From Hymenobacter sp. CRA2 (GTDB taxonomy: Bacteria; Bacteroidota; Bacteroidia; Cytophagales; Hymenobacteraceae), in contig NZ_MVBC01000015.1 in assembly GCF_002007105.1 (NCBI RefSeq), positions 62,001-126,000 of the forward strand: DNA of 64,000 nt, in the 5' to 3' direction. The notes beneath the pieces were generated by a model. The model was not told the origin of the DNA. It saw nothing but the letters and a program-made list of their open reading frames with translations, and searched no databases. Position numbers and translations under genes: made by a program. Shown one piece after another: positions 1,995 to 43,256 of the stretch (positions within the stretch are counted from its first letter, which is position 1; every line of letters starts with the position of its first letter).

Positions 1995-2050
1995 GGGCGC
2001 GATGAGTAGGGCAGTGGATGAAATACGGCTGAACTGCTGATTACCAAAAG

Positions 2051-2095
2051 AAGCCGCCCCGGCTGCCTGCTGGCAACCGGGGCGGTTTCTTTTTG
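2051..2095. terminator. Bidirectional rho-independent terminator
   Basis: GC-rich stem (aagccgccccgg / ccggggcggttt) followed by tttctttt, with matching A-rich bases on the left. It lies between two converging genes and can serve both. Confidence 0.85.
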
Positions 2096-2108
2096 ATCCG
2101 AACCGGAA

Positions 2109-3065
2109 TTACTTGCGGCGGGCCATTACTTTCTCCACGGCGGCCACAATGGCCTGCTCGTTGAGGCCGTACTTTTCCATCAGCTCGTCGGGCGTGCCCG
2201 ATTCGCCGAAGGAGTCGTTCACGGCTACCATTTCCAGCGGCAGCGGCTCTACGCGGGCCAACAGCTGAGCAATGGAGTCGCCCAGGCCGCCGTTCATTTG
2301 GTGCTCCTCGGCCGTCACTACGCAGCGCGTCTTGCGGACCGAAGTCAGCACGGCTTCCTCGTCCAGGGGCTTGATGGTGTGGATGTTGATGATTTCGGCG
2401 TTGATGCCCTTGTCAGCCAGCAGGTGGCCGGCCAGGATGGCCTTCCACACCAGGTGGCCGGTGGCGAAGATGCTCACGTCGGTGCCCTCGTTCAGCATCA
2501 CAGCTTTGCCGATTTCAAACTTCTGGTCGGCGGGGGTGAAGTTAGGCACCACCGGGCGGCCGAAGCGCAGGTACACCGGGCCTTCGTAATCGGCAATGGC
2601 CAGGGTAGCGGCTTTGGTCTGGTTGAAGTCGCAGGGGTTGATGACGCACATATGGGGCAGCATTTTCATCATGCCCACGTCCTCCAGAATCTGGTGGGTG
2701 GCGCCATCTTCGCCCAGGGTCACGCCGGCGTGCGAGGCACAGATCTTCACGTTCTTGCCCGAGTAGGCAATGCTCTGGCGGATCTGGTCGTACACGCGGC
2801 CCGTCGAGAAGTTGGCGAAGGTGCCGGTGAAGGGAATCTTACCGCCGATGGTCAGGCCGGCGGCCAGGCCCATCATGTTGGCTTCGGCAATGCCCACCTG
2901 GAAGAAGCGCTCCGGGAAATCCTTCACGAAGGCGTCCATTTTCAGGGAGCCGATGAGGTCGGCGCAGAGGGCCACTACGTTGGGGTTGGTCTGGCCGAGC
3001 TGGTGCAGGCCGGCACCGAAGCCGGAACGGGTGTCTTTTTTCTCGGTGTAGGGGAAGTCTTTCAT
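2109..3065 (-). CDS. Transketolase, C-terminal half (pyrimidine-binding and C-terminal domains)
   Basis: 318-residue transketolase-family subunit. With the N-terminal subunit encoded at 4733-5617 it would make a functional split transketolase, the ThDP enzyme of the non-oxidative pentose phosphate pathway. The pyrimidine-binding domain is visible in QVGIAEANMMGLAAGLTIGG, which holds the Glu that activates ThDP, and in THQILEDVGMMKMLP. The C-terminal domain follows from about residue 185 (VSIFATGHLVWKAILAGHLL). The length suits a stand-alone C-half. The ATG at 3065 starts directly into a family-like N-terminus (MKDFPYTEKKDTRSGFGAGL). The VWA gene separates it from its partner gene, which is unusual. 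Confidence 0.9.
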   Translation of the reverse strand: MKDFPYTEKKDTRSGFGAGLHQLGQTNPNVVALCADLIGSLKMDAFVKDFPERFFQVGIAEANMMGLAAGLTIGGKIPFTGTFANFSTGRVYDQIRQSIAYSGKNVKICASHAGVTLGEDGATHQILEDVGMMKMLPHMCVINPCDFNQTKAATLAIADYEGPVYLRFGRPVVPNFTPADQKFEIGKAVMLNEGTDVSIFATGHLVWKAILAGHLLADKGINAEIINIHTIKPLDEEAVLTSVRKTRCVVTAEEHQMNGGLGDSIAQLLARVEPLPLEMVAVNDSFGESGTPDELMEKYGLNEQAIVAAVEKVMARRK

Positions 3066-3177
3066 ATTGGAAGGGAGGAAGTTTCAGTTAGAAGAAAAGT
3101 GGCCTGCTTGTGGTGTCACGCAGACCAAAGTAGATAACCACTCTGTAGGGCCGGAATGCCGCGTCAGTGCGCCATGG

Positions 3178-4587
3178 TTATTTCCCAAAAATGCTGACCG
3201 ACGTGGTTTGCCCACTACGGATGGTGAACGGCCGCACGTCCGTAAACCGGCTGCCCGTGGCGTTGCTGGTGCGGTACACCAGGCGGTACGGGCCCGGCTG
3301 CATAGGCAGGTTAATCTTGGACGAACCACCCTGCGGCAGGTCGTACACCCAGGTTTGCGAGTCGTCCTGGTTGAGGCGGTAGATGCTGCCGTAGCCTTTC
3401 AGGTCGCTGATGATGTTCAGGGTGCCCGGCGCGTCGTAGGTCACCGTGGTTTCCTGGCCCTGCTTCACGGTGATGCGCCGGATGATGCGCGGCAGCGTAA
3501 GGATTTCCACCTCGTAGTTGCCGGCCAGCAGCTTCTGCTTCGCCCCGAACGAGCGGGCCACCACCGTAGCCGGACTGGCCTGGGCGCGCACCACCGCCTG
3601 CACCACGCCGTAGGGGTTGGGCGAAAGGGGCGGGTTCTGCAGATTCAGCGTGCCCTGCGGGGTCTTGTAGGTCAGCACGTTGGCCTTGCCGGGCCGGATA
3701 GCCAGGTTTTGCTGGCGCACCGGCGGCACGGTGTTGATGACCAAGTCGTAGCTCTGCAGCGCGTCGATGTCGAGTACGTCGGGCTGGCCCTTGGCGTCGC
3801 GCCAGTGCACGTAGTTGTACTCCGGTTGGTCGGTGACGTTGTTGAGGAACGTCATGTTCACGTTCGACTCCACCGGCCGGCCCGTTTCGTCCGTCAGGTT
3901 CACGGCTACCGTGGTCTTGGCCAGGGTCTGGGCAATGACGTCGCCCAGGATGGCGCGGAACGTCTTCACGTCGGCCGCGTTGTAGTACTGGCCCAGGCAC
4001 TTGAGCTGCTCGCCAAACTCGCGCTCCGCCCCGATACCGATGACGAAGGGCTTCAGAAACACGTGCTTGCGCTGCAGGGCCAGGGCCGTGGCGCACGGGT
4101 CGCCCTTGCACGATTCGAGCCCGTCCGTAATCAGGATGAGCACGTTGCGTGCGTTGCGGTCGGCCGGAAAGTCGCCTGCCGACTGCAGCAGCGAGTAGGT
4201 GATGGGCGTGTTGCCCTGCGGCGTCAGGGCCTGCAGCTTTTGCTTGATGGCGGCCGCGTTTTTGCGGGCAAAGGGCACCTCCAGGCGCGAGTCCTCGCAG
4301 TTGTTGTCCTTGTTGGGGTACTGATGGCCGTAGGCGCGCAAGGCCAGCTCCAAGTTGGGGTAGGCGTTGAGCGAGTCGGCCATCTTGGCCAGCAAGGACT
4401 TGGCTACGTTCCAGCGTGGCTGCCCTTCCCACGGCGCGTTCATCGAGCCCGAGGCGTCGAGCACGAAGAGGATGCGCGTGGTTTTGGGCTGGCCCGACGG
4501 GGCGCCTTGCTGGGCACGCAGCGGCCCGGCCAGCAGCCAAAAGGCCGCCAGCAGAACCAGCTTCCAGGTAAGAATGCGTCGTGCCAT
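3178..4587 (-). CDS. VWA domain-containing exported protein
   Basis: 469 residues. A signal peptide (residues 1-25, ending AQQG) is followed by a von Willebrand factor A domain. The MIDAS motif is complete: DASGS at residues 44-48, later TYSLLQSAG, and LILITDGLESC. After the VWA domain (about residues 38-225) come beta-rich repeats that look like carboxypeptidase-regulatory or MG2-like modules (LAKTTVAVNLTDETGRPVES, YEVEILTLPRIIRRITVKQG). It is probably a periplasmic or surface metal-dependent adhesion or scaffold protein; its partner is unknown. It lies between the two transketolase halves on the same strand, with 112 and 145 bases on either side. The start codon is 4 bases after a repeat element (4592-4640). 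Confidence 0.8.
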   Translation of the reverse strand: MARRILTWKLVLLAAFWLLAGPLRAQQGAPSGQPKTTRILFVLDASGSMNAPWEGQPRWNVAKSLLAKMADSLNAYPNLELALRAYGHQYPNKDNNCEDSRLEVPFARKNAAAIKQKLQALTPQGNTPITYSLLQSAGDFPADRNARNVLILITDGLESCKGDPCATALALQRKHVFLKPFVIGIGAEREFGEQLKCLGQYYNAADVKTFRAILGDVIAQTLAKTTVAVNLTDETGRPVESNVNMTFLNNVTDQPEYNYVHWRDAKGQPDVLDIDALQSYDLVINTVPPVRQQNLAIRPGKANVLTYKTPQGTLNLQNPPLSPNPYGVVQAVVRAQASPATVVARSFGAKQKLLAGNYEVEILTLPRIIRRITVKQGQETTVTYDAPGTLNIISDLKGYGSIYRLNQDDSQTWVYDLPQGGSSKINLPMQPGPYRLVYRTSNATGSRFTDVRPFTIRSGQTTSVSIFGK

Positions 4588-4591
4588 GTGC

Positions 4592-4640
4592 GCCTCACCC
4601 CCCGGCCCCCTCTCCGGAAAGAAGAGGGGGAGCCTGACGA
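4592..4640 (-). repeat. Start-proximal palindromic repeat, copy 1 (family shared with 55065-55110)
   Basis: Read on the minus strand this begins tcgtcaggct, has a C-rich/G-rich stem (ccccctct / agaggggg), continues through ggccggggggtgaggc and stops 4 bases before the ATG of the VWA gene. The same element in the same orientation precedes the FdhF/YdeP gene. The closing ggggtgagg could act as a ribosome binding site, though this is not shown. Confidence 0.7.
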
Positions 4641-4732
4641 TGCAGGTACGAGAGGAGCCTAATGGTGAAAACAGTATTTACGCCGCGGCCATCAATGCCA
4701 TCCAGGCCAGTTGAAGCAGCGCGGGGAATGGT

Positions 4733-5617
4733 TTAGTAGTCCGATTTTTCCTCCACGATAAGCTGCTGCAGCGCTTTTTCCAGCTGCTCGTCGTTCGGGG
4801 CCACGCCGTGCCACTTGTGGCTGCCCATCATGAAGTCCACGCCGTAGCCCATCTGCGTGTCCATCAGCAGCATCACGGGTTTGCCCTGGCCCAGCAGCGA
4901 CAGAGCTTCGTCCAGCGCCGGCAACAGGGTTTCAAACTGGTTGCCGTCGGCTTCGAGCACTTGCCAGCCGAAAGCTTCAAACTTGGCGCGCAGGTCGCCC
5001 AGGCCGCCGATTTTGTCGGTCGGGCCGTCGATCTGCTGGCCGTTGCGGTCCACTACCGCAATCAGGTTGTCCACCTTGTGGTGCGGGGCGTACATGGCCG
5101 CTTCCCACACCTGGCCTTCTTCCAGTTCCCCGTCGCCCATCAGCACGAACACGCGGCGGTCGTCGTTGTTGAGCTTCTTGGCCTGGGCCGCGCCGATGGC
5201 CACGCTCAGGCCCTGGCCGAGCGAACCGGAGGCAACGCGCACGCCAGGTAGGTGCTCGTGGGTGGCAGGGTGGCCTTGCAGGCGCGAGTTCAGCTTGCGG
5301 AAGGTAGCCAGCTCACTCACCGGGAAGTAGCCCGAGCGGGCCAGCACCGAGTAAAATACCGGCGAGATGTGCCCGTTGGAGAGGAAGAACATATCCTGGC
5401 CGATGCCATTCATGTCGAAGGGCTCGGGGTGGTGCTTCATCACCTTGAAGTACAGCGCCACCAGCAGGTCGGTGCAGCCCAAAGAGCCGCCGGGGTGGCC
5501 GGAGTTGACGGCGTGCACCATGCGCACGATGTCGCGGCGTACCTGGGAGGCAATCTGCTTGAGTTCGGCCACGGAGCGCGTGGGAGTGGCGGCAGCGGGA
5601 GAAGGAGAAACGGACAT
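4733..5617 (-). CDS. Transketolase, N-terminal (ThDP diphosphate-binding) half
   Basis: 294 residues forming the Pyr/PP N-terminal domain of a split transketolase. Visible family signatures are IVRMVHAVNSGHPGGSLGCT near the N-terminus, SNGHISPVFYSVLARSG, GSLGQGLSVAIGAA, and the ThDP Mg-binding motif GDGELEEGQVWEA with VDRNGQQIDG (GDGx...N). It ends KWHGVAPNDEQLEKAL, the usual end of the N-half. The ATG at 5617 is preferred over the in-frame ATG at 5677 because residues added upstream resemble leader DNA rather than protein. Bases 5618-5645 upstream are pyrimidine-rich on the coding strand. Substrates are phosphorylated sugars; cytoplasmic. Confidence 0.9.
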   Translation of the reverse strand: MSVSPSPAAATPTRSVAELKQIASQVRRDIVRMVHAVNSGHPGGSLGCTDLLVALYFKVMKHHPEPFDMNGIGQDMFFLSNGHISPVFYSVLARSGYFPVSELATFRKLNSRLQGHPATHEHLPGVRVASGSLGQGLSVAIGAAQAKKLNNDDRRVFVLMGDGELEEGQVWEAAMYAPHHKVDNLIAVVDRNGQQIDGPTDKIGGLGDLRAKFEAFGWQVLEADGNQFETLLPALDEALSLLGQGKPVMLLMDTQMGYGVDFMMGSHKWHGVAPNDEQLEKALQQLIVEEKSDY

Positions 5618-5826
5618 ATAGGGGAAGAGTGAAAGAGCGAAAATGTGAAAAATCAGGCCGCTAACGGCATTGCGCACAAAGTCTTACGGCGCGAATGTGG
5701 GGCGGTAGCGGCCGTAGCGGCAGGGGGCTAAGTTCGGCCGGGGGCGCGGTTTGCGCAACTACGGCCGGGCTGAACCCTACCGAAAACGAAACCGGCGGGC
5801 CCTGGGAGGGTCCGCCGGCGGCCAAA

Positions 5827-6279
5827 TTACTTAAGCAGCTGTTCGGCGTGGTTTTTCGTGTCGGGGCGGCGGATAATGCGCTCCACGCGGCCTTCCGCGT
5901 CGAGCACAAACGTGGTGCGTGCCACGCCCCAATAGGTGCGGCCGTAGTTCTTTTTTTCCTGCCACACGCCGTAGGCTTCTACCAGCTGCTTCTCGGGGTC
6001 GGCCAGCAGTGGGAAGGGCAGTTCGTACTTCTCGGCAAAGCGCTGGTGCGAGGCCACGTCGTCGGTGCTCACGCCGAGCACCTGGATGCCGGCGGCTTTG
6101 AGCTGGGCCTCCCCGTCGCGCAGGGAGCAGGCCTGGGCCGTGCAGCCGGGCGTATCGTCCTTGGGGTAGAAGTACAGGGCCACGCGCTGGCCGCGGTAGT
6201 CCGCGAGGTGGTGCGTCTGGCCGTTTTGGTCCTGGGCCGTGAAGTCGGGGGCTTGGTCGCCGGGGCTAAGCGTAATCAT
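5827..6279 (-). CDS. bcp: Thioredoxin-dependent peroxiredoxin, Bcp/PrxQ type
   Basis: 150-residue peroxiredoxin that reduces H2O2 and organic hydroperoxides with electrons from thioredoxin. The N-terminus MITLSPGDQAPDF and YFYPKDDTPGCTAQACSLRD are diagnostic. Peroxidatic Cys46 and resolving Cys51 are five residues apart, as in atypical 2-Cys PrxQ/Bcp enzymes. VARTTFVLDAEGRVERI and the short C-terminus also fit. The start at 6279 is chosen because the in-frame upstream extension (MADAHYIRANRL) is not family-like. Cytoplasmic. It is followed on its left by the transketolase N-half, probably as a separate unit. Confidence 0.92.
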   Translation of the reverse strand: MITLSPGDQAPDFTAQDQNGQTHHLADYRGQRVALYFYPKDDTPGCTAQACSLRDGEAQLKAAGIQVLGVSTDDVASHQRFAEKYELPFPLLADPEKQLVEAYGVWQEKKNYGRTYWGVARTTFVLDAEGRVERIIRRPDTKNHAEQLLK

Positions 6280-6316
6280 CGGGCCCAAAGGTAAACGGTT
6301 GGCCCGGATGTAGTGC

Positions 6317-6349
6317 GCGTCGGCCACGGCTCATAGCCGTGGCCGACGC
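6317..6349. terminator. Stem-loop between lipocalin and bcp genes
   Basis: Perfect 15-base arms (gcgtcggccacggct / agccgtggccgacgc) with a 3-base loop, then ttttat on the plus strand. It sits downstream of the leftward lipocalin gene and upstream of bcp. The T-run is on the side opposite to lipocalin transcription, so its role is uncertain. Confidence 0.55.
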
Positions 6350-6410
6350 TTTTATGAACTACGCGTAGTCTGGGCTACTGCACGGGCGCCCCGCGTGGGG
6401 CCCCATGGTG

Positions 6411-6974
6411 CTAGGCCGTTTCCTGTTCGGGCTGCTGCGTGTAGATGAGGTTGCCCACATCGAAGCCCTTTTGCGCGGCCATTTCGATCAGGTTGCGCAG
6501 GGTGGGGTAGCCCAGATGCGGCGTGCGGCTCAGCACCCATAGGCCCGTGCGGTCGGGCGTACCCACGAGGGCGAAGCGGTAATCCTCGTCGAGCACCAAA
6601 ATCCAGTAGTCGCCCTCGAAAGGCCACTGAAACTGCACTTTCAGCTTGGCGTTGGTCTCGGCATCGACCACGCGGGCCACGCCCCGTACCTTTTTAGCGG
6701 GTGCATTTACAGAGTCCTTGTGGCAGGTGTTATGCACCTCAATTTTGCCATCGGCCATGGGGCGGTACTCGGCCGTGACGTGGGTGCAGCGCTTCTCAAA
6801 CCGTTGCGGCAGGCGGGCAATTTCGTACCACAAGCCGGCGTAGCGACGCAAATCGACGTGCGAGACAGTATCCAACTCTGGGTACCGGCGGCGGGTAAGG
6901 GCGTACACGGTGGCCCCGGCCAGCAGGGTGGCGGCGGTCCAAATAATAGGCTTACGGATGCGAGGGGTGGGCAT
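6411..6974 (-). CDS. Blc-like lipocalin, membrane-anchored
   Basis: 187-residue bacterial lipocalin. Residues 8-26 form one hydrophobic segment (IIWTAATLLAGATVYALTR), acting as signal anchor or uncleaved signal; there is no lipobox Cys, unlike E. coli Blc. The lipocalin GxW motif appears in DLRRYAGLWYEIARLP (residues 41-56), followed by the Blc-type Cys-containing FEKRCTHVTAEY, then CHKDS, FEGDYWILVLDEDYRFALVG and WVLSRTP. The family binds lysophospholipids or fatty acids in the envelope, often in membrane stress. It is monocistronic by spacing: a stem-loop lies at its 3' side and a divergent gap of about 220 bases at its 5' side. Confidence 0.85.
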   Translation of the reverse strand: MPTPRIRKPIIWTAATLLAGATVYALTRRRYPELDTVSHVDLRRYAGLWYEIARLPQRFEKRCTHVTAEYRPMADGKIEVHNTCHKDSVNAPAKKVRGVARVVDAETNAKLKVQFQWPFEGDYWILVLDEDYRFALVGTPDRTGLWVLSRTPHLGYPTLRNLIEMAAQKGFDVGNLIYTQQPEQETA

Positions 6975-7197
6975 GAAGGTGTGGGTTAGGTGTGGACAGG
7001 CCGTGTACGCAGCCCCCGCGCAGGCGTTCGAAAATGGCGGCCTGCCTTGAGTCTGGCAGGCTGTTTGTTGCGGGGCGAGGGGCCATGTTCCGATGCTTGC
7101 CTAAATTTGCCGACTGGCAGTCAACCAACACGGGCACGGCCGACTCTTCTTACCCGCTACCGGGTAGTAGCATTTGATATTCACACCTAACGCATAC

Positions 7198-7701
7198 ATG
7201 GCTTTCGACGCTACCAAACAGCAACTCTTCCTCCACACCGAGCAGCAGCTGCGCGAGCAGGGCTTCGGGATTGAGCGCCAGGATCAGACGCGGCCCTGGG
7301 GCGGGTTCTTCGTCATCGACGAAACCCAGGCCCAGCAGTTCGCCGATACCTACTTCGATGGCCTGTCGGTCGAGGAGCTGCGCATCTCGGGCAAGCTCAG
7401 CCCCAAGATTCTGATTGTGGCGCCGCAGCAGCGCCTCTCGTGGCAGTACCACCACCGCCGCGCCGAAATCTGGCGTGTGGTGCAGGGCCCGGTGGGCGTG
7501 GTCACCAGCGACACGGACGCCGAAGGCGAGGTGAAGACCTACCAGGTGGGCGAGCAGATTACCCTGCGCCAGGGCGAGCGGCACCGCCTCGTGGGCCTCG
7601 ACGGCTGGGGCATCCTGGCCGAAATCTGGCAGCACACCGACGCCCAGCAGCCTTCCGACGAGGACGACATCGTGCGCGTGCAGGACGACTTCGGCCGGTA
7701 G
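7198..7701 (+). CDS. Cupin, mannose-6-phosphate isomerase type II-like
   Basis: 167 residues. RPWGGFFVIDE near residue 35 and KILIVAPQQRLSWQYHHRRAEIWRVV with GEQITLRQGERHRLVG form a cupin barrel of the type fused to mannose-1-phosphate guanylyltransferase, but here it stands alone. The metal-binding pattern (QYHHRRAE...GERHRL) is complete. It may isomerise a sugar phosphate or simply bind a sugar ligand. The ATG at 7198 is preferred to the GTG/ATT-rich upstream extension. It is followed by a strong terminator and is divergent from the lipocalin gene. Confidence 0.75.
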   Translation: MAFDATKQQLFLHTEQQLREQGFGIERQDQTRPWGGFFVIDETQAQQFADTYFDGLSVEELRISGKLSPKILIVAPQQRLSWQYHHRRAEIWRVVQGPVGVVTSDTDAEGEVKTYQVGEQITLRQGERHRLVGLDGWGILAEIWQHTDAQQPSDEDDIVRVQDDFGR

Positions 7702-7783
7702 GCTGGTTTAGACACGAGTATAGAGAACTGAGAAGCGAGACGCGGCGACATCACCGCTGATCAATCAACATCCCAGTCAATAG

Positions 7784-7818
7784 AAAAGCCCCGCCGGATT
7801 GTTCCGGCGGGGCTTTTT
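7784..7818. terminator. Rho-independent terminator
   Basis: Stem aaaagccccgccgg / ccggcggggctttt with a 6-base loop and T-run. It lies between two convergent genes (cupin and glucose-6-phosphate isomerase) and is A/T-flanked on both sides, so it works in both directions. Confidence 0.9.
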
Positions 7819-7882
7819 GCTGTATGAAGCCTGAAACAGAAGAACGGGATTCGTCTGGCTTCGCAGGCCTTCTAGCTCTTGC

Positions 7883-9589
7883 CTAAGCCTTCAGCGCGGC
7901 CGTCAGCTTACGCACCCCCTCGAGCGCGTTGGCGCCGAGGTGCACGCGCAGGGTGCGGCGGTCGTAGCTGCGCAGGGCTTCCAGGTCGCCTTGGGCCTGG
8001 GCGTCCTTCAGCGTGCCGAAAGTGTAGGAGCGGCCGGGCAGGGGCAGGTCGGGGTTGTTGTCGGCGGTGAGCTGCAGGAACAGGCCGGTGTTCGGCCCGC
8101 CCTTGTGGTACTGGCCGGTGCTGTGCAAAAAGCGCGGGCCGTAGCCGAAGGTGGTGGCTGCGTGCAGGCGTTGCTGCAGCGTGGCGCGCAGCTCGTCGAT
8201 GGCGGCGTTCAGCTCAGGCGTCTCCGTCAGGTACGCCTGAATGGAAACGTAGTCGCCGGGGTTGGCCTGGAAAAACTGCCCGAGCAGGCCTTGGGCATCG
8301 GCGCCGGTAGTCGGGCCGTAGAAGCTCAGCCCGTCGGCCGCCAGCGCGGTAGACTCCTGGGGCAGGCTGCCTTTTTCAGCTACTTCTTTCATCAGCTTGT
8401 CGGTGGCGGTTTTAGCCGCCTGCACGTTGGGCTGGTCGAAGGGGTTGATTTCGAGCACGGCGCTGGCTACGGCCGTGGCCACTTCCCAGCGGAAAAACTC
8501 CTGTCCCAGATCCAGCGCGTCGTGCATACGAATGCTGATAACGGGGTGGCCAGCAGCCTCCAGGGTCTGCAGTTTTTGCTGGTTGTCAGCGTCGGCGTCG
8601 CCTGCGTAGCCCACGTACACGAACACGCGGTCATTGCCGTACAGGCTCACGTCGGCCAGCGGCTCGCCGGCCACGGGCAGGATGCCCACGCCGTGCTTGC
8701 CGGTGCTTTCGGCAATAAGCTGCTCCAGCCACAGGCCCAGGTCGCTCAGGCCTGCGGGCGTGATGAGCGTAAGCTTGTCGCGGCCCTGCTGGGCTAGTAC
8801 GCCCAGGGCCACGCCCAGCTCCAGGCCGGGGTTGCTGGTTACGTCGCCATTCGAGCCGTTGGCCTGCATCATGCCCACCGAGCGGCGCAGCAGCTCCTCG
8901 ATGTCGATGCCGTAGAGGGCGGCGGGCACCAGCCCGAAGTAGGAGAGGGCCGAGAAGCGGCCGCCTACCTCGGTGAAGTTCAGGAACACGCGGCGGTAGC
9001 CCAGGCTTTCGGCCGTAGCAATGAACTTGGAGCCGGGGTCGGTAATAGCCACGAAGTTTTCGCCGGCCTTGTCGCCTTTGATAGCTTTGATCCGGTCGTA
9101 GAAATAGTCGCCAAAGGCCAGGGGCTCGGCCGTGGTGCCCGATTTGCTGGCCACGATGCACAGCGTGGTTTCCAGCGGTACGGCCTTTTCAATCTGCTGC
9201 ACCGTGCCCGGGTCGGTGGTGTCGAGCACCAGCATTTCCAGGCCGCCTTCGGTCTTGGGGAAGGACTTCTCGAACACAATCGGAGCCATAGAGGAGCCGC
9301 CCATACCCATGACGATGACGTGGGTAAAGCCGGCGGCCTTCACTTCCTGCACAAACTGCTCAATCTCGCCCACGCGCTCCTGCATGGTTTCGGCCACGCG
9401 CAGCCAGCCCATGTAGGCCCGCAGCTCGGCCTGGGCCTGCGGGTCCTGCACCCACAGGTCGGCCTGTTTCTGCCAGAAACCAGCGGTGAAATTCTTGGCG
9501 TTGAATTCGGCAATTTTGGCGTCGACGGCGGCCTGGTACTGGCCCAGGTGCAGCTCGGCGGCGGGCACGGATTGTTGCGTTTCTCCCAT
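7883..9589 (-). CDS. pgi: Glucose-6-phosphate isomerase (type found in bifunctional transaldolase/isomerase)
   Basis: 568 residues with the SIS-fold isomerase pattern of tal-pgi fusion proteins rather than of classical Pgi: MGMGGSSMAPIVFEKSF (about residues 94-110), CIVASKSGTTAEPLAF, AIDELRATLQQRLHAATTFG, and FLHSTGQYHKGGPNTGLFLQ, with the catalytic His in the last. No transaldolase domain is present. It interconverts glucose-6-P and fructose-6-P in the cytoplasm. An open frame extends about 280 bases upstream, but the ATG at 9589 (MGETQQSVPAAELHLGQYQ) starts the family-like part. It is converging on a strong terminator and stands as its own transcription unit. Confidence 0.88.
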   Translation of the reverse strand: MGETQQSVPAAELHLGQYQAAVDAKIAEFNAKNFTAGFWQKQADLWVQDPQAQAELRAYMGWLRVAETMQERVGEIEQFVQEVKAAGFTHVIVMGMGGSSMAPIVFEKSFPKTEGGLEMLVLDTTDPGTVQQIEKAVPLETTLCIVASKSGTTAEPLAFGDYFYDRIKAIKGDKAGENFVAITDPGSKFIATAESLGYRRVFLNFTEVGGRFSALSYFGLVPAALYGIDIEELLRRSVGMMQANGSNGDVTSNPGLELGVALGVLAQQGRDKLTLITPAGLSDLGLWLEQLIAESTGKHGVGILPVAGEPLADVSLYGNDRVFVYVGYAGDADADNQQKLQTLEAAGHPVISIRMHDALDLGQEFFRWEVATAVASAVLEINPFDQPNVQAAKTATDKLMKEVAEKGSLPQESTALAADGLSFYGPTTGADAQGLLGQFFQANPGDYVSIQAYLTETPELNAAIDELRATLQQRLHAATTFGYGPRFLHSTGQYHKGGPNTGLFLQLTADNNPDLPLPGRSYTFGTLKDAQAQGDLEALRSYDRRTLRVHLGANALEGVRKLTAALKA

Positions 9590-9807
9590 CGGGGTATGAA
9601 GTAGAAAAAGAATGACGTAGGGGCAGGCCGCCCAGGCCTTCAACGAAAGGCCAACCGCGGCGGCTGCGGGGGTAAAAATGCACCTCCTTTCCGAAACGAT
9701 GGGGCTGGAAGCAGAATTTTCCGCCGGCAGAGGAAGATGGTATTTAGCAAGGCCTTGACTGCCACCGCGTAATTTGCCGACTCTGCCGCAGTGCTGGTCA
9801 GTCTGAT

Positions 9808-11341
9808 ATGCGAATAAGTTGCGTTGTTTATTTGGGCTTTTTATTGCTGATGCCCGGGTTGCTGCGGGCACAATCGGTGCCCCCTCCTAAAGGCTACAAG
9901 CTGCACCGGGTGCGGCGGCTACGCCCCGCGCCGCTGCCGCCCGGCGGACTGGTGCCGTACGACGGCTACTTCGAGTGGGGGCTGTCCGATACGCTGGGCC
10001 GGGTGTACGTGCAGCCCACGTTTCAGAACGAGCTTAAAGCCACGGCCGGGCCCTTCTGGCTGTCGGAGTGGGGATCTGTCACCACCACTTATCGGCGCAG
10101 CAGCCGGTGGAAAAACCAGCAAGGCGAATGGGAAATCTGGCTGAATGCCCGCGGGCAGTATCTGGTCGTACCGGCAGGTTTTGCCGCCTACCGCCAGCCT
10201 GCGGGCCAAGCCGCTGCGCCGCCACCTCACGGCCCCGCTGTACCGTTTCGAATCGGCTCTGGACACGGCCGCGCGTGGCCGGCGCTATTGGCACAACTGG
10301 CCCAGGGGCAAGGGCTGGGTGTACTCGCTGGGCGCCGATCTGTTCGCCGTGCGCGGCCCCAGCGGCCCGCGGTATGTCCGGCAGCTGCACCGCCGTAACC
10401 GCCGCCATCCGGTGCCGCACCCGCCGCCGGCGTACGGGCCCGCGCAGGCCCTGTTCGACAGCACCAGCCGCCGCCTCACCCCATACCGTTACGACCGGTT
10501 GCTGCCTATCAGCGACGGACGCATCCGCTTTGAGCGGTACGCGGCGCGGCGCACCTACGGCTACCTGGACCCGCGCGGCCGCGAAGTGCTCGGGCCGTAC
10601 GATGCCGCCGGGCCGTTTTCCCACGGCCGGGCCGTGGTCGTGACAGCCGGTGCCCCCACGCCCAACGACGACCAGTACGCGCTTATCGACACAACGGGCG
10701 CGTACGTGCTGGCCCCGCAGCCGCGGCGGCTGGACGGCCCCGATGCGCTGGGCTTCGTGCGCCGCGCGGTGCCCCGGGCCGGCAAGGGAAACGTGGCCGA
10801 GTACCTGCGACCCAACGGGCAGCCGGCTTTCCCCGGTCGCTATTTTGGTTGGGGCGACGAATTCAAAACCGATTCCGCGGCCGTGCCCGACACGCTCGGC
10901 CGGCCCGGTATTCTCTACAGCGACGGCCGCTGGCTGCCCCGGCCCGCGCCCGCCAAGCCCATAATCAGGGCCGCGCCCCGGCCCACGGTGCAGGAGGCGC
11001 TTAACGACCGGTTCCGGCTGATCAAAAGTGACGGCCAGCCGCTCAACGCCGAAACCTACGCCTGGGCCAAGGCGCTAGCTGGTGACTGGTTTGCAGCCCG
11101 CCCAACGCCCGAGGCGGCTATGCTGCTACTTACGCCCGCCGGCCAGCCCTACCCGCTGCCGCCCGGCTACGAACCCGATCTGATGGAGCACAGCGTGGCC
11201 AATGCCGCCGAAGTGCCTTTCGCCAACGGCTTGTTGAAAGTGCGCTGGGGTAAGCCTTTCCGGGAAGGCGGGGAGCCTCGGCGCGAAGCCTACATGACCC
11301 GCAGCGGCCGCATTCTTACCAGCGACCTGAAGGGCGATTAA
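9808..11341 (+). pseudogene. WG-repeat-containing exported protein, frameshifted
   Basis: Two overlapping open frames together read as one protein. The first (from ATG 9808, stop 10398) begins with a signal peptide (VVYLGFLLLMPGLLRAQS) and a WG-like unit (LGRVYVQPTFQNELK). The reading then makes sense only in the next frame from about 10190, continuing LTAPLYRFESALD and carrying WG-type units (YGYLDPRGREVLGPYD, GPFSHGRAVVV) to the stop at 11341. One extra base somewhere in 10180-10205 would explain it. Whether this is a true pseudogene, a sequencing error or a programmed shift cannot be told here; no slippery heptamer is obvious. An intact product would be about 510 residues, exported, with unknown function. 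Confidence 0.65.
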
Positions 11342-11362
11342 GCTCAGAAGCTAAATAGGAAA

Positions 11363-11405
11363 GCGGGTAGGGTATTTTCGGATGACTCGAAAATACCCTA
11401 CCCGC
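11363..11405. terminator. Perfect 18-bp inverted repeat, bidirectional terminator
   Basis: Arms gcgggtagggtattttcg and cgaaaataccctacccgc with a 7-base loop, placed between the convergent WG-repeat gene and the M23 peptidase gene. The stem has no separate T-run but is long and perfect. Confidence 0.75.
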
Positions 11406-35217: not shown

Positions 35218-37454
35218 GCACCAGCAGCAGCAATACCAACTACGTCGGCAAAGCCCCGAACCGCGTCGAGGGCCCGGCCAAAGTCACCGGCGCGGCCAAG
35301 TATTCGGGCGAATTTGAGGTGCCCGATCTGGTGTACGGCGTGGTGGTGAGCAGCCCCATTGCCAAAGGCAAAATCCTGAAAATCCACGCCGATAAGGTGC
35401 TCAGCCTGCCGGGCGTGCTACAGGTGTTTTCGCACGAAAACGTGCCCCATCAGGCGTGGTTCGACCGCAACTACAAGGACGACGTGGCTCCCGGCGGCTC
35501 GCCCTTCCGCCCCCTGCACGACGACGAGGTGAAGTTCAGCCAGCAGCCCGTGGCCCTGGTCGTGGCCGATACCTTCGAAGTGGCCCGCTACGCGGCTAGC
35601 ATCCTCGAAATCGAGTACAAGGAGGAAAAGCACGAAACCGACATCGAAAGCCAGCGCGACAAGGGCCACGCCCCGAGCAAGGGCAAGTCGGGATACAAGC
35701 CGCCGTCCAGCCGCGGCAACGCCGCCAAAGCCATTGAGAAGGCCGAGCACCGCATCCGCCACGAGTACATCCATGGCACGCAGCATCACAACCCCATGGA
35801 GCTGTACGCCAGCACGGTGCACTACCACCCCGACGGCAAGCTGACCATCTACGACAAAACCCAGGGCGTGCTGAACTGCCAGCAGTACGTCACGAAGGTA
35901 TTTGGGCTGAGCAAGGACGAGGCGCGGGTTATCAACCTCTACAACGGGGGCGCTTTCGGCTCGGGCCTGCGCCCGCAGTACGAGCTGTTCCTGTCGGTAA
36001 TGGCTGCGCTGGAGCTGCGGCGCTCGGTGCGCGTCACGCTCACGCGCCAGCAGATGTTTTCCATCGGCCACCGCCCGCACACCCTGCAGACGCTGGAAAT
36101 GGGCACCAACCCCGACGGCACGCTGGCTGGCCTGAAGCACTACGCCCTGCACGAAACCTCGCGCTTCGAGGAGTACACCGAAAACGTGGTGAACTGGTCG
36201 GGCATGCTCTACCAGTGCGACAACGTGCAGCTGGGCAATCAGGTGGCTGCGCTCGACGTGTACACCCCCCAGGACATGCGCGCGCCCGGCGCCGCCACCG
36301 GCTCCTTTGCCCTGGAAGTGGCGATGGACGAAATGGCCTACGCCGCCGGCCTCGACCCGGTGGATTTCCGCCTGCGCAACTACGCCGAAACCGACCAGAG
36401 CGAAAAGCTACCCTTCAGCAGCAAGCGCCTGCGCGAGTGCTACCGCCAGGGCGCCGAAAAATTCGGCTGGGACCGTCGTCCGCTCAAGCCGCGCTCCATG
36501 CGCGAGGGCAACAAGCTCGTGGGCTGGGGCATGGCCGGCGGCGTATGGGACGCGCAGATGCAGAAAGCTGCCGCCAAAGCCAGCATCACGGCCGATGGCA
36601 AGCTGACGGTGACCAGCGCCGCCGGCGAAAACGGCACCGGCACCTACACCATCATGACGCAGATTGCGGCCGAAACCCTGGGTCTGCCCCTGGAAGCCGT
36701 AACCTTCAAGCTCGGCGACACCGACATGCCCGAAGCCCCCGTGCAGGGCGGCTCCTGGACGGCCGCCTCCGTGGGCACCGCCGTGCAGAAAGCCTGCCTC
36801 GCCGTAGCCGACAAGCTGCTGAAGCAAGCCAAAAAGATGGACGACTCCCCCCTGAAAGGCGCCGACCTGGAAGACGTGGAGTTTGTCAACGGCCTGATCC
36901 GGCTGCGCAAGGCGCCCGAGCAGTCGGTGGTGCTGCGCGACGTGCTGCAAGTCAGCGGCGAGCGGCAGATAGAGGCTGACTCCACGGCCATTCCGAACCT
37001 GCTGAACATGGCCCGCTACTCCATGCACTCCCACAACGCGGTATTCGCCGAAGTGCAAGTAGACGAGGAGCTAGGCACCATTCACGTCACGCGGGTAGTC
37101 AACGCGCTGGCCATCGGGCGGGTGCTCAACCCGAAGACCGCCCGCTCGCAGGTGCTCGGCTCGGTGGTGTGGGGCATCAGCATGGCCCTGATGGAGGAAA
37201 CCGTGACCGACCACCGCTTCGGTCGCTACATGAACCACAACCTCTCGGAGTACCACGTGCCCACCAACGCCGACATCCGCGACATCGACGTGATTTTTGT
37301 GGAGGAGGAAGACCCCTACGTGAACCCGCTGGGCGTGAAGGGCGTCGGCGAATTGGGCCTGCTGGGCGTGGCCGCCGCCATCAACAACGCCGTCTTCCAC
37401 GCCACCGGCAAGCGCGTCCGCGACCTGCCGATTTATATCGATAAGCTGCTGTAG
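35214..37454 (+). CDS. Molybdopterin-binding large subunit, xanthine-dehydrogenase family (PaoC-like)
   Basis: 746 residues. N-terminal aldehyde-oxidase a/b hammerhead domain (RVEGPAKVTGAAKYSGEFEV) and the two molybdopterin-binding domains: NPMELYASTVHYH, NGGAFGSGLRPQ, DMRAPGAATGSFALEVAMDE, GGSWTAASVGTAVQ, and the catalytic-Glu segment GVKGVGELGLLGVAAAINNA. Length suits PaoC/YagR. It hydroxylates aldehydes or purine-like substrates at a Mo centre; the substrate is undecided, though PaoABC similarity favours aromatic aldehydes. An arm-shaped terminator follows. XdhC (43257) and the mobA fusion nearby would supply sulfurated dinucleotide cofactor. Confidence 0.93.
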   Translation: MSTSSSNTNYVGKAPNRVEGPAKVTGAAKYSGEFEVPDLVYGVVVSSPIAKGKILKIHADKVLSLPGVLQVFSHENVPHQAWFDRNYKDDVAPGGSPFRPLHDDEVKFSQQPVALVVADTFEVARYAASILEIEYKEEKHETDIESQRDKGHAPSKGKSGYKPPSSRGNAAKAIEKAEHRIRHEYIHGTQHHNPMELYASTVHYHPDGKLTIYDKTQGVLNCQQYVTKVFGLSKDEARVINLYNGGAFGSGLRPQYELFLSVMAALELRRSVRVTLTRQQMFSIGHRPHTLQTLEMGTNPDGTLAGLKHYALHETSRFEEYTENVVNWSGMLYQCDNVQLGNQVAALDVYTPQDMRAPGAATGSFALEVAMDEMAYAAGLDPVDFRLRNYAETDQSEKLPFSSKRLRECYRQGAEKFGWDRRPLKPRSMREGNKLVGWGMAGGVWDAQMQKAAAKASITADGKLTVTSAAGENGTGTYTIMTQIAAETLGLPLEAVTFKLGDTDMPEAPVQGGSWTAASVGTAVQKACLAVADKLLKQAKKMDDSPLKGADLEDVEFVNGLIRLRKAPEQSVVLRDVLQVSGERQIEADSTAIPNLLNMARYSMHSHNAVFAEVQVDEELGTIHVTRVVNALAIGRVLNPKTARSQVLGSVVWGISMALMEETVTDHRFGRYMNHNLSEYHVPTNADIRDIDVIFVEEEDPYVNPLGVKGVGELGLLGVAAAINNAVFHATGKRVRDLPIYIDKLL

Positions 37455-37460
37455 AAATCC

Positions 37461-37504
37461 TAGCGCGTGCTGCAGGGCTGAAACAATGTCCTGAGCACGC
37501 GCTA
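37461..37504 (+). terminator. Terminator of the pao-like operon
   Basis: tagcgcgtgct / agcacgcgcta (11 bases) with further pairing cagg / cctg, 6 bases after the stop. AT-rich DNA begins immediately after it. Confidence 0.7.
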
Positions 37505-37509
37505 TTAAT

Positions 37510-38454
37510 CTAAAATATAGGATTGTATTTTATGAACTGCCAGATATTTAGATAATGTTGAAGTATATCTTCTGTTATTAACAGCTTGTCTATTGTTGTT
37601 AGGTTTGAAAAAACGTTATCTGTGAGAGGTACGTCTGTTGTGCTAATTCTATTAATTGATGCAGATAATATGGATTTATAATTTTTGGATTTTGTGGATT
37701 TAAATCCTAGGTATAACGGTAGTGAGTTAAATAAATTATTCGTGTTTTCTTCTAATTGAGTGTTTTTATGCTCTGATATTCGTTTCAGGAATGAATTTAA
37801 GGTTTCGGAGGATGAATCCATTAAGTTTTCAGGTTTGCTGTGAAAGCCGACTTTTAATTCTTTGCAATAAGAATAATGGTGGCTGGTGTTTTTGTCGTAT
37901 ATTTTGCTGTGAGGTGGGATGGTTAATGAATTTTTAAAAACCTTTACGTTGTCAAAATTATGTGCATAAGAAGAGCTGTCTAGAATAATAATATTGTGGA
38001 AGTGCGTTGGTATTACATCTTCTCTATATTGCTTTATAGACAACAAGTCCTGTTTCTTGTAAAATAATGGTGCGACATAAGCTGCGTGGTGCTTTTGTGA
38101 TAATTCATGCATAACGTTGTGTTGTTTGTAGCCATTTTCTTTTTTCAATAATTCAAAAGCGAAAAACCCTTTTTGAGTAGGTAGGCTGATCTTATTTCTA
38201 TCTGAAAGTAGTTTGCCTGAAAAACTTGGGGTAAAAAAATATGACCTTTTAAATTGAATATAGAAGGGTACTATTGTAGTTAGTACGCCGTCATAGCCAA
38301 GTTCATTTTCATCTGCTTGGGAAATTCTGCTAATGCCAACGCTTTTGTCTTTATAATAAAAGGTTCTGTTTAGGCCTGTCTCAAGAGCAGATATAAAGTC
38401 TTCCTCGATGAAATCAGGTTTGTGTGTTTCTCCTTTTTTTAGTAATGAAGTCAA
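37510..38454 (-). CDS. Orphan protein in AT-rich island, possible restriction-nuclease-like fold
   Basis: 314 residues in DNA much richer in A/T than its surroundings (line 37561-37620 has 17 G/C of 60; a flanking line has 37). I do not recognise a named family. Near the N-terminus, E25, D55 (GYDGVL) and Q67-x-K69 (FYIQFKRS) are spaced like the E...D...(E/Q)xK core of PD-(D/E)XK nucleases. Further on are AAYVAPLFYKKQDL, a hydrophobic strand IIILDSSS and a His-rich HHYSYCKEL. The first possible start is TTG; open reading continues 5' without stop to about 38526 (SNIPPPLKRR precedes), so the gene may use an unusual start or be 5'-truncated. Probably acquired by transfer. Confidence 0.6.
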   Translation of the reverse strand: MTSLLKKGETHKPDFIEEDFISALETGLNRTFYYKDKSVGISRISQADENELGYDGVLTTIVPFYIQFKRSYFFTPSFSGKLLSDRNKISLPTQKGFFAFELLKKENGYKQHNVMHELSQKHHAAYVAPLFYKKQDLLSIKQYREDVIPTHFHNIIILDSSSYAHNFDNVKVFKNSLTIPPHSKIYDKNTSHHYSYCKELKVGFHSKPENLMDSSSETLNSFLKRISEHKNTQLEENTNNLFNSLPLYLGFKSTKSKNYKSILSASINRISTTDVPLTDNVFSNLTTIDKLLITEDILQHYLNIWQFIKYNPIF

Positions 38455-38654
38455 TGTTCTTCGTTTAAGAGGTGGAGGTATATTTGAGTGACTTGGTTTT
38501 ATTGCAACAATAAGTAGGTATGATTATTGATAAATCATATATTATTTGCAATGGGTTTGGTTGTTTTTCGGGTTAATTTTGTATGTATTTTTAAGAGGCG
38601 TTTGTGGTTGAATAATACTTGTGCTGAATAGTTCTTCTGACTAAAGTAATATGA

Positions 38655-38679
38655 TTGCCCACGTTGCTTGGTATATTTG
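38655..38679 (+). promoter_or_regulatory. Possible promoter of the aldo/keto reductase gene
   Basis: tatatttg at 38672-38679 fits TAnnTTTG exactly, 30 bases before the ATG; a ttg at 38655 is only 14 bases upstream, shorter than the usual 19-20. It lies within the AT-rich island. Confidence 0.35.
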
Positions 38680-38709
38680 ATGGCAATATACTTTTCGTAA
38701 CTGACTTTT

Positions 38710-39702
38710 ATGATATACCTCCCCGCCGCCACTCGCTACCGTGATATGACCTACCGCCGCTGCGGCCGCAGCGGGCTGAAGCTACCCGCCGTGTCCCTGG
38801 GCCTGTGGCACAACTTCGGCGACGTGGACCAACTGGCTACCGGCCGCGCCACCCTGCGCCGGGCTTTCGACAGCGGCGTGACACACTTCGACCTGGCCAA
38901 CAACTACGGCCCGCCGCCCGGCTCGGCCGAGCTCAACTTCGGCCGCATCCTGCGCGAAGACTTGGCCACGTACCGCGACGAGCTGATCATTTCCACCAAG
39001 GCCGGTTACCACATGTGGGAGGGGCCTTACGGCGAGTGGGGCTCGAAGAAATACCTGGTCAGCAGCCTCGACCAGAGCCTCAAGCGCATGGGCCTGAACT
39101 ACGTGGATATCTTCTACCACCACCGCCCCGACCCCGACACGCCGCTGGAAGAAACCATGGGTGCCCTCGACCTTATCGTGCGCCAAGGCAAGGCCTTGTA
39201 CGTGGGCATCAGCAACTACCAGCCGGCCGAAGCTGCCGAGGCCTTCCGCCTGCTGCGCCAGCTAGGCACGCCCTGCCTGATTCACCAGCCCAAGTACTCC
39301 ATGTTCGAGCGGTGGGTGGAAGACGGCCTGCTCGATTTGCTCGGCCAGGAAGGTGTCGGCTGCATTCCGTTTTCGCCGCTGGCCCAGGGCCTGCTCACCG
39401 ATAAGTACCTCGGCGGCATCCCCACCGACTCGCGCGTGGCTAAGGGCGTGGGCTTCCTCACCGAGCAGCAACTGACGCCGGAACGCCTCACGCAGGTGCA
39501 GCGCCTAAATGAGCTGGCCCAGCAGCGTGGCCAAAGCCTGGCACAGATGGCCCTGGCTTGGGTACTCAAGGACGAGCGGGTGACGTCGGTACTCATCGGG
39601 GCCAGCCGCCCCGAGCAGCTCAGCGACTCCCTGCGCTGCCTCGACAATCTACAGTTCACCCCTGAAGAGCTAGCCGCCATCGAACAGGTTCTGGCTCAGT
39701 AA
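38710..39702 (+). CDS. gpr: Aldo/keto reductase, YghZ/Gpr-like (L-glyceraldehyde 3-phosphate reductase type)
   Basis: 330 residues, single (beta/alpha)8 barrel using NADPH. Family-specific start MIYLPAATRYRDMTYRRCGR resembles the N-terminus of E. coli YghZ, which supports the ATG at 38710 over the ATG at 38746. Catalytic residues are Asp and Tyr in FDLANNYGPPPGSAE, Lys in STKAGYHMW and His in FYHHRPD. GISNYQPAE, SPLAQGLLTDKYL and VLIGASRPEQL complete the fold. YghZ detoxifies L-glyceraldehyde 3-phosphate and methylglyoxal. Sits alone next to the AT-rich island; a palindromic repeat follows. Confidence 0.9.
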   Translation: MIYLPAATRYRDMTYRRCGRSGLKLPAVSLGLWHNFGDVDQLATGRATLRRAFDSGVTHFDLANNYGPPPGSAELNFGRILREDLATYRDELIISTKAGYHMWEGPYGEWGSKKYLVSSLDQSLKRMGLNYVDIFYHHRPDPDTPLEETMGALDLIVRQGKALYVGISNYQPAEAAEAFRLLRQLGTPCLIHQPKYSMFERWVEDGLLDLLGQEGVGCIPFSPLAQGLLTDKYLGGIPTDSRVAKGVGFLTEQQLTPERLTQVQRLNELAQQRGQSLAQMALAWVLKDERVTSVLIGASRPEQLSDSLRCLDNLQFTPEELAAIEQVLAQ

Positions 39703-39775
39703 GCGGAGAAACAAGCTGCTACGTCACGCTGAACGCCGGCGGCGCAGCCCCACTGATTGGTCAGGGCGTCTTGGT

Positions 39776-39880
39776 CGTCATGTCGAGCGCAGCCGAGACA
39801 TCTCGCCGGATAGTAATCTGCTCGTTGAGTTACTACCTCACATCAGCCCGCGAGATGTCTCGGCTATGCTCGACAGGACG
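39776..39880. repeat. Approximately 105-base imperfect palindromic repeat
   Basis: Arms 39776-39806 and 39850-39880 pair in 28 of 31 positions (cgtcatgtcgagcgcagccg...). The centre includes ggatagtaat / gttactac. It is the same family as 42813-42922 and as the inner unit of 31924-32104. It occupies the gap between gpr and the convergent TPR lipoprotein gene; the remaining bases show nothing. Confidence 0.8.
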
Positions 39881-39969
39881 GGCTTATTGCTTGGATTATC
39901 CAAAGCGGTAAGAACGAGTCTACAAGCAGGCCATAGGTGGCGCATAGGCTTATGCTGTTTGCGTAATCT

Positions 39970-41676
39970 TCAAATAAACTGCAGCTGCAGGTTCGTCAAA
40001 AACAAGCGCGCGGCGGCCAATTCCGGACGGGCAGTTTCGGCGGCCGGCGCTACGGTCAGCAATTGCTGGTAGTAGAGGGTGGCTTTTTTAGATTGGCCGG
40101 CTTTTTCGGCGGCGGTGGCGGCGCCGTAAAGGGCGTTGAAGCGGTTAGGGTGTTTCTGTAAGGTGGCCTCGTAGGCGGCCAGGGCAGCGGCGGGCTGCTG
40201 CAGCTCCAGCAGCATGTCGGCCAGTAGCTCCCGGGCGGGCAGCACTTCGCTGGGCGTCACGGGGTGCTTTTCGGTTTGATCTTCCAGGTCGGCGGCTTGC
40301 TGCATGCGCTGCAACGCGGCGGCATGTTTGCCTTTGGCCAGTAGCAGCCAGGCCTCGGCGGCGCGTTGCTGCACATCGACCTGCCGGGCCTTGTACGCGT
40401 CGTGCTGCTGGAGCAGCGCCGCGTGCAGGGCACTCAGCTGCGCCACTTCGGTACGGGCCTGCGCGGCGTGGCCGGTGCGGGCTGAGCCCAGGGCGCGGGC
40501 AAAGTGCGTGATGGCGCGCTGCCAGGGAAACTCGTCCCAGGCGAAATTGGCCGGCCGCAGCGGCATTTGCGCGGCCGCGTCCCACTGCTTGGTTTCCAGC
40601 ACGCAGCGGGCCGGAATGGCCGCGTAGGCGTACGCGACTTTAAAGGTGACCGGCGTCACCTGCCGGATGGTGTCGAGGTAGCGCCAGTAGGAGCGGGCCC
40701 GCTGGGTGTCGCCCTGCTGCAGGTAAGCGTACACGAGGTAATCCAGGCTGTGCAGCTCTTCGTCCCAGTGGCCCGGCAGCCCGGCGCTTTCGGCGTAGCA
40801 CTGGGCCGAAGCCGCCGCGGCCAGGTTGGAACCGATGCATTCCTGCCACAGGCCCAGGCGGGTGAAAATGTGCGAGGGCATGTGCAGCGCGTGGGCCGAC
40901 GACGGCGCTACCGAAGCGTAGTGGCGCGCCGCGGGCAGGGCCAGGGCCGCCAGCTCGGGGTAGTCGTAGGTGTGGATGAGGTAGTGCACGATGCCCGGAT
41001 GATTGGGCTGCTGCCGCTGCAGGCGTTGCAGCAGGGCGCCGGCTTTGCGCTGGTTGCGGAAGGTTTTGTCGGTGGGCGCAGCGGAGGCGTCGAGGGCCAG
41101 GGCGTAAAAGATGGTGGCTTCGGTATCGCGCGGAAAGTTGGTGGCGAGGCGCGTCATGGCCTGCGCAAACCGCACGCTGCGGGTGTGGTGGTCGGTCCGC
41201 TGATGGTCGGCGTAAAAGGCCGTTAGAGCGTCGATATAAGCTGTTTCACGGGCTGATTTGCCCGGTAGCTGCTGCGCCAGGGCCACGGCGCGGGCCCCCT
41301 TGGCCAGCTCGGCCGGGGTGGGCGGCGTCCAGAGCGGGTGGTAATTGCACATGGCCACGCCCCAGTAAGCCATGGCGCAGCCCGGGTCCTGATCGATGAT
41401 GCGGGCGAAAACTTTTTCGGCCGCGTCGTACTCGAAAGAGTGAAGCAAGGCCACGGCCAGGGAAAAGTCTGCCTTGATCTTATCCGAGCCCGTCACCTCG
41501 AAGGCCACGCTACCAAACTGCTTGTCGGCCGGGCCGCACAGGGAGATGTTGCCGCGCTTGAGGTCAAGGGCAGTGAGCGTCGCTGACGACACGGTTTGGC
41601 TTTTTCGCTCGCAGGCCGTAAGCAGCGTGCACATACCGAAACCCAGCCACCAGGCAAATTTGAGCGCGTTGGTCAT
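39970..41676 (-). CDS. TPR-repeat lipoprotein
   Basis: 568 residues. Lipoprotein signal ending LLTAC at Cys22. The mature part is helical with TPR-like units: FSLAVALLHSFEYDAAEKVF, DPGCAMAYWGVAMCNYHPLW, AHALHMPSHIFTRLGLWQEC, LHSLDYLVYAYLQQGDTQRA and C-terminal PAAALAAYEATLQKHPNRF with GQSKKATLYYQQLL. The Trp/His/Cys-rich early motif (CNYHPLWTPP) and HMPSHIF recur in a Bacteroidota family of unknown function. An outer-membrane-linked scaffold is likely. No operon partner is clear. Confidence 0.75.
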   Translation of the reverse strand: MTNALKFAWWLGFGMCTLLTACERKSQTVSSATLTALDLKRGNISLCGPADKQFGSVAFEVTGSDKIKADFSLAVALLHSFEYDAAEKVFARIIDQDPGCAMAYWGVAMCNYHPLWTPPTPAELAKGARAVALAQQLPGKSARETAYIDALTAFYADHQRTDHHTRSVRFAQAMTRLATNFPRDTEATIFYALALDASAAPTDKTFRNQRKAGALLQRLQRQQPNHPGIVHYLIHTYDYPELAALALPAARHYASVAPSSAHALHMPSHIFTRLGLWQECIGSNLAAAASAQCYAESAGLPGHWDEELHSLDYLVYAYLQQGDTQRARSYWRYLDTIRQVTPVTFKVAYAYAAIPARCVLETKQWDAAAQMPLRPANFAWDEFPWQRAITHFARALGSARTGHAAQARTEVAQLSALHAALLQQHDAYKARQVDVQQRAAEAWLLLAKGKHAAALQRMQQAADLEDQTEKHPVTPSEVLPARELLADMLLELQQPAAALAAYEATLQKHPNRFNALYGAATAAEKAGQSKKATLYYQQLLTVAPAAETARPELAAARLFLTNLQLQFI

Positions 41677-42922: not shown

Positions 42923-43256
42923 AACTTTCCCGAATCGGCTAAAGCCAGTATGCGAGCTGCTGCATGCGTCCGACAGGGCGGGCTGGAACTCAACGAAGCA
43001 GCCAAAATGCTTGCCCACGCCAATCTTCGGTCCGACAAGCGGGCGACAACACGGCGCAGGACGTGCTGCTTGCCTGCTGCCTCCCTTAAGGTGGCAGTTC
43101 GGTGCTGAGCACCCAAACCACCCCAGGCGGCGCACAACCGCTACCGGCGCGGCGGCGTACTGCCCTACAATCATTCTGCCCGGCTGGGAAGAAATGGCGA
43201 GCCGCTTGTTGTTTCCCGCGCGGCTATTATCGTCTCGGCCTGCTCCACTCCACACC

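Follow-up and report, generated by a model that had tools for sequence, protein, structure and literature searches.

The stretch of DNA analysed here (64 kb, Hymenobacter-like to judge by its genes; hereafter the window) contains an AT-rich island at positions 37505..38705, inside which there is exactly one intact gene. The island has a GC content of 0.325, whereas 601 other 1,201-base segments of the 64 kb have a mean of 0.639, a standard deviation of 0.024 and a minimum of 0.573 (z = -13 for the island); the sharp fall in base composition between high-GC flanks described in an earlier note on this DNA was therefore confirmed. Both edges are abrupt when followed in 60-base steps, with GC dropping on the side of the neighbouring paoC-like gene, a name taken over from the earlier note (0.53 at 37440, 0.33 at 37480), and climbing on the far side (0.33 at 38660, 0.72 at 38720). 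The orphan gene (37510..38454, minus strand) has a GC3 of 0.315 versus 0.875 in the paoC-like gene. The island is real and its composition is foreign. On the basis of its reading frame, its relatives and their invariant residues, the gene is a candidate nuclease of the PD-(D/E)XK type, from a family that has no name. A perfect 11-base inverted repeat (TAGCGCGTGCT / AGCACGCGCTA), read from the sequence at 37461..37504, is located between two convergent genes and may act as a two-way terminator; a terminator scan that required a loop of 3-8 bases and a T run did not include it in its list.

According to the list of open reading frames (ORFs), the product of the orphan gene has 314 amino acids, with a TTG start at 38452-38454 and a stop codon at 37510-37512. 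These 314 codons form an intact frame in which the family-invariant residues are retained. The frame also stays open for 23 codons 5' of the TTG (337 codons altogether) without an ATG, and for this reason the start had appeared odd in the earlier note. These observations hold; however, the TTG sits at the start position of the family, as it matches, without gaps, the ATG position of the four closest relatives (loci L029-L032), and the 15 residues from the TTG up to and including an invariant PDF are the same in number as in those relatives. Owing to this gap-free match, the TTG is the likely start, and the open frame upstream of it is probably a chance occurrence. Beyond the start, an AT-rich non-coding stretch (38455..38709), delimited from the sequence and the GC steps, ends at the first ATG of ORF 38710-39702, which we take, from reading by eye, to encode an aldo/keto reductase. 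No promoter above chance level was found upstream of the orphan gene using a sigma-70-like scan and a search for TTTG: sigma-70-like matches in 38455..38709 were no more numerous than in shuffled sequence, and TTTG does not occur in the 256 bases upstream of the gene.

A search of 57 other genomes, among them seven congeners, did not find the orphan gene. Six of these congeners (loci L068-L073) have a paoC-like gene with 82-86% conservation, the seventh (G005) having been left out of the locus comparison with a paoC match of only 72%. In all six, the match stops at window positions 37453-37455, which is the stop codon of paoC, and homology to the window restarts at approximately 40,016-40,106 in four loci and at 43,251-43,256 in the other two, with differing ORFs in between in each of the six loci examined. 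ORF 38710-39702 is likewise absent from this place in the six congener loci, and thus the whole stretch from paoC to the next shared genes is variable. The foreign-looking insertion that had been proposed is supported by the absence of the gene elsewhere and by the variation of the site among congeners. Of the empty site envisaged for relatives, the absence of the island gene was observed, but in the six congeners other ORFs come after paoC. The interval (37455-40000 in the window and its counterparts in L068-L073) appears to be a small hotspot for acquired genes. An ORF read by eye as Arr-like follows paoC in two congener genomes (G006 and G007).

The family to which the orphan gene belongs is rare, occurring in Bacteroidota, Ignavibacteriae and one Acidobacteria metagenome-assembled genome (MAG). 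When 395 genomes of the phylum were searched with the protein, 22 had matches at E values of up to 0.1, of which the own genome and two believable relatives (G126 and G424) were retained, with E values of 1.7e-5 or better. The other 19 genomes, with best E values of 0.002 to 0.097 and in many cases internal stops, were dropped. A profile scan of GTDB contigs provided seven loci: L029 (Chryseobacterium sp. Leaf180) and L030-L032 (three Bacteroidota MAGs), with 51-56% identity to the window protein, and L033 (the Acidobacteria MAG), L034 (a Bacteroidetes MAG) and L035 (an Ignavibacteriae MAG), with 27-29% identity. The L035 gene and the G126 gene are the same gene. More distant members were obtained by profile search from G163, G561 and G979. 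Profile searches found the family in four of 395, three of 395, one of 294 and three of 390 genomes, in sets that overlap and that all count the own genome except for the set of 294. Among L030, L031 and L032, dN is 0.023-0.034 versus a dS of 0.22-0.42, indicating purifying selection on the family there. The G424 gene is split by contig ends into two pieces and was omitted from the alignments of eight and 11 members used below (A3 and A7). Two contig ends cut the family gene in this genome (L004 and L024), and a repeat may lie inside or beside it.

The earlier description of the protein as belonging to no family that could be named was borne out, as the window protein has no match in Pfam, PADLOC or NCBIfam at E values of up to 10. 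Its sole sequence match in the PDB (nucleoside diphosphate kinase, E = 1) and a match to PHROG 38776 (E = 0.016) were taken as chance. For the family, the profile has no sequence relative in the PDB, none of the eight members of alignment A3 matches Pfam and none of 11 members matches PADLOC-DB 2.0.0 at E values of up to 1. A SUa-2TM match confined to the L081 member (E = 0.029) was under the cut-off, and the NCBIfam (best E = 0.001) and PHROG (best E = 0.013) matches concern one member each and look like chance. In tblastn searches, neither plasmids nor phages matched the window protein or the L080 and L081 members, plasmids did not match the L033 member, and scans of IMG/VR gave no relatives of the family. 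In the portions of the literature that were accessible, no publication was tied to the family, which has no name to search by.

Some relatives have ends that resemble those of integron cassettes. In L030, L035 and L079, complementary cores of 10-11 bases begin with GTT before the start and end with AAC after the stop. The cores are 10 bases long in L030 and 11 in L035 (0 of 2000 shuffles in each case) and 10 in L079 when an overlapping partner ORF is counted in (two of 2000 shuffles); these shuffle counts are optimistic, because the test was devised after the ends of these three loci had been seen and because L079 needs the partner ORF. No complementary GTT/AAC core is present within 150 bases of either end of the window copy, and the exact end test was also failed by L029, L031, L032, L033, L034, L080 and L081, as well as by G424 (four bases). 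In L031, the family gene lies in a run of same-strand genes set apart by repeats of 105-166 bases; some of these repeats can pair into long, imperfect hairpins and end in GTTAG. A 106-base repeat is present both before and after the family gene in L030, and only an upstream core was read by eye in L032 and L034. The best explanation is that the family is transferred among bacteria and that, in some relatives, it travels as a cassette with integron-type ends.

A strict scan for attC sites (GTTRRRY) found no site adjoining any family gene, and the ends are thus attC-like rather than proven attC sites. The only two strict sites were both in L028, the nearest being approximately 210 bases beyond the piece of the G424 gene and, by eye, unlike a cassette end. 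A relaxed scan gave sites above the shuffles in L031 (three), L079 (three) and L028 (eight and seven on the two strands, with shuffle maxima of three and four) and none in the window stretch searched. One of the three L079 sites looks like a terminator hairpin. The run in L031 (4176-16253), with its long attC-like repeats between genes, also contains an IS-type transposase and an ORF that is HNH-like by eye.

Known defence genes were found by PADLOC or Pfam near the family gene at six of 12 loci (the window, L029-L035, G424, L079, L080 and L081), the neighbours being hand-picked and with no random-locus control. The PADLOC scan covered two proteins each at L029 and L030, four each at L031, L032 and L079, three at L034 and one at L081, as well as all seven ORFs at L080, the family member included. 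No defence system was seen at the other six loci, where the scan took in part of the neighbours at L030 and L081 and none of those at L033, L035, G424 and the window. The L080 member is located within a BREX operon (BrxC-PglX-member-PglZ-BrxL), three bases from pglX and five from pglZ, and BrxC is matched there from profile position 298 onward. In L032, a type II methylase and restriction enzyme precede the member by 133 bases, and in L034 the member lies 1.4 kb before type I restriction-modification (R-M) genes and PrrC. The next gene in L031 is PD-T4-1; AbiTii, AbiP and a caspase are within 2 kb of the L079 member; and an Mrr-nSTAND3 protein and an Old-like ATPase are 3.9 and 6.5 kb from the L029 member, with IS3-like ORFs between. 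A lone methylase approximately 4.4 kb from the L030 member was excluded from the count. As the scan was partial, the proteins were picked by eye and no random control was used, the association of the family with defence is suggestive, and the BREX and R-M cases are the strongest. The role in defence that the earlier note had guessed therefore gains neighbourhood evidence at the loci of relatives, but none from the window itself. The L079 member belongs to a low-GC, mostly same-strand gene run (700-11370), next to which lies a gene with a GC content of 53%. The run contains attC-like sites (2607-2692 and 4088-4211) and what reads by eye as a PIN-type toxin. A 171-aa ORF in this run (6202-6717) shares 20 bases with the end of the family gene and is a possible partner.

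The invariant residues were identified in alignment A7, the 11 members of which have identities to the window protein of down to 21%. Those shared by all 11 are Glu17, Asp55, Tyr65, Gln67, Phe68, Lys69 and Ser71 (E17, D55, Y65, Q67, F68, K69 and S71), followed by Q111-H112-N113, Y126, A128, P129, P149, I179, P181, H192, H205 and I304. PD-(D/E)XK nucleases are defined by a conserved D ... (D/E/Q)-x-K motif, which is usually accompanied by a first-helix acidic residue. An arrangement E...D-x11-Q-x-K with a hydrophobic stretch around Q-x-K has the look of such a site, and glutamine occupies the third place of the motif in Mrr proteins. Each of these positions is found among the invariant residues: E17 (codon at 38404..38406, minus strand) is the candidate for the acidic residue of the first helix, and the codons from D55 to S71 (DGVL...FYIQFKRS; 38242..38292, minus strand), read from the translation and its invariance, would encode the catalytic core D-x11-Q-x-K with D55, Q67 and K69. 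Of the nuclease-site pattern first proposed, D55 and Q67-x-K69 were thus retained, but E25 is glutamate in only five of 11 members, and the conserved acidic residue is E17.

The pattern of E17, D55, Q67 and K69 fits a PD-(D/E)XK nuclease, and membership of the superfamily is a motif-level candidate that is not established. AlphaFold, run on eight sequences, gave a mean pLDDT of 39.8 (38.8 with another member placed first). Comparison by hhalign gave no match with Mrr_cat (score 11.0, probability 0.1%) or with DUF4365, although the reference alignments were small, with six Mrr_cat and two DUF4365 sequences, so that the failed comparison is weak evidence against a nuclease. The L079, L080 and L081 members have no match to Mrr_cat (PF04471). 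With no usable fold and a failed comparison with Mrr_cat, the nuclease assignment stays at the level of the motif. The order of an acidic helix residue, D and then Q-x-K can also be read in the Mrr_cat domains of L082, L083 and L029; in contrast, the family has no sequence or profile match to Mrr_cat. The C-terminal part with its two invariant histidines is not known as a component of the Mrr_cat domain.

The explanation that we favour, to which about an even chance is given, is that the orphan gene, a single acquired gene after paoC, encodes an anti-phage nuclease that is mobile, probably acts on its own and belongs to a family without a name. The gene would have arrived by horizontal transfer directly behind paoC, a place taken by other genes in congeners. 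The N-terminal part of the protein (approximately residues 13-135) would form a metal-dependent DNA nuclease site of the PD-(D/E)XK type from E17, D55, Q67 and K69, and the remainder, with H192, H205 and perhaps the QHN of residues 111-113, would sense or bind the target. The protein would then restrict incoming phage or plasmid DNA, probably without partner genes. We infer the nuclease chemistry, the DNA substrate, the anti-phage role, the role of the C-terminal part and the route by which the window copy arrived. Held somewhat more tentatively is a wider proposal, according to which the family as a whole would be a previously undescribed group of compact single-gene anti-phage nucleases, combining the E-D-QxK site with a new histidine domain, carried by integron-type cassettes across Bacteroidota and neighbouring phyla and recruited into BREX and R-M loci. 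If this is true, the orphan gene gives access to a small, as yet unnamed family of defence proteins that was missed by PADLOC and that offers clear residues for mutation and natural versions for comparison.

The active part of the protein could be marked equally well by the invariant QHN and the two histidines. The protein may accordingly be a mobile defence protein other than a nuclease, such as an abortive-infection toxin or a phosphodiesterase, in which the N-terminal residues would bind a nucleotide or protein trigger and the QHN and the histidines would be active. We consider this rather unlikely. It would explain why QHN, H192 and H205 are as invariant as D55, Q67 and K69 and why the nuclease profiles give no match, and the presence of AbiTii and AbiP among the L079 neighbours is consistent with it; however, the E...D-x11-Q-x-K set resembles the nuclease site outlined above, and no hallmark of a known toxin or of a 2H phosphoesterase was recognized by eye.

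The member inside the BREX operon of L080, the members beside R-M genes and the member with an overlapping partner ORF could also indicate an accessory gene of BREX or restriction systems, dependent on partners and stranded in the window. This is distinctly improbable, since the neighbours are not the same at the different loci and since L030 and L035 have the gene by itself between cassette-like ends and L031 has it by itself between repeats. The L080 member has the same operon place as the extra genes of Salmonella BREX, namely an ATPase and a DUF4435 gene between pglX and pglZ, which are not needed for methylation according to the accessible part of that report (PMC9009780), a dispensability that also argues against an accessory role. 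However, the protein differs from those of Salmonella, and BREX was seen at one of the 12 family loci, the other flanks having been scanned in part or not at all. That the gene is a passenger or a decaying gene with no function in its present host is very improbable, as its 314-codon frame is intact with the family-invariant residues kept, although the lack of a promoter above chance, the TTG start, the unadapted GC3 and the lack of cassette ends would be expected of such a gene.

The anti-phage cassettes of integrons are among the closest known parallels to the mobile anti-phage nuclease that we favour. In Vibrio, phage defence was obtained from at least 16 of 179 V. cholerae and nine of 57 V. 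parahaemolyticus integron cassettes, as given in the available portion of that study (PMC12409362). The family shares with these cassettes the one- or two-gene units with cassette-like ends (L030, L035 and L079) and the defence genes among its neighbours. It differs in being found in Bacteroidota and Ignavibacteriae, in the window copy having no cassette ends and in core sites such as GTTAGCG, which depart from GTTRRRY. Furthermore, BREX is absent from integrons in the part of the same study that was available (PMC12409362), whereas one family member is located in BREX.

The available portion of the IntegronFinder 2.0 report describes one complete integron in Bacteroidetes (Salinibacter ruber), a group in which previously only lone integrases had been recorded, and further integrons in Chlorobi and Ignavibacteriae (PMC9024848). 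If our proposal is true, integron-type cassettes of Bacteroidota and Ignavibacteriae would be tied to phage defence. An integron integrase over the curated cut-off was found in one of 11 family-bearing genomes, namely G126, which is the L035 genome, where it is located on another contig (446.6 bits); none over the cut-off was found in the own genome. In L030, a 286-aa tyrosine recombinase (4446-5306) is the divergent neighbour of the family gene with its repeat. Its position identifies it as the match recorded as G1311:C193, which is split into two pieces of 117 and 99 bits and falls under the cut-off, and alignment shows that it does not have a stretch present in the true IntI of G126. This recombinase may act on an integron-like array that has no classical IntI.
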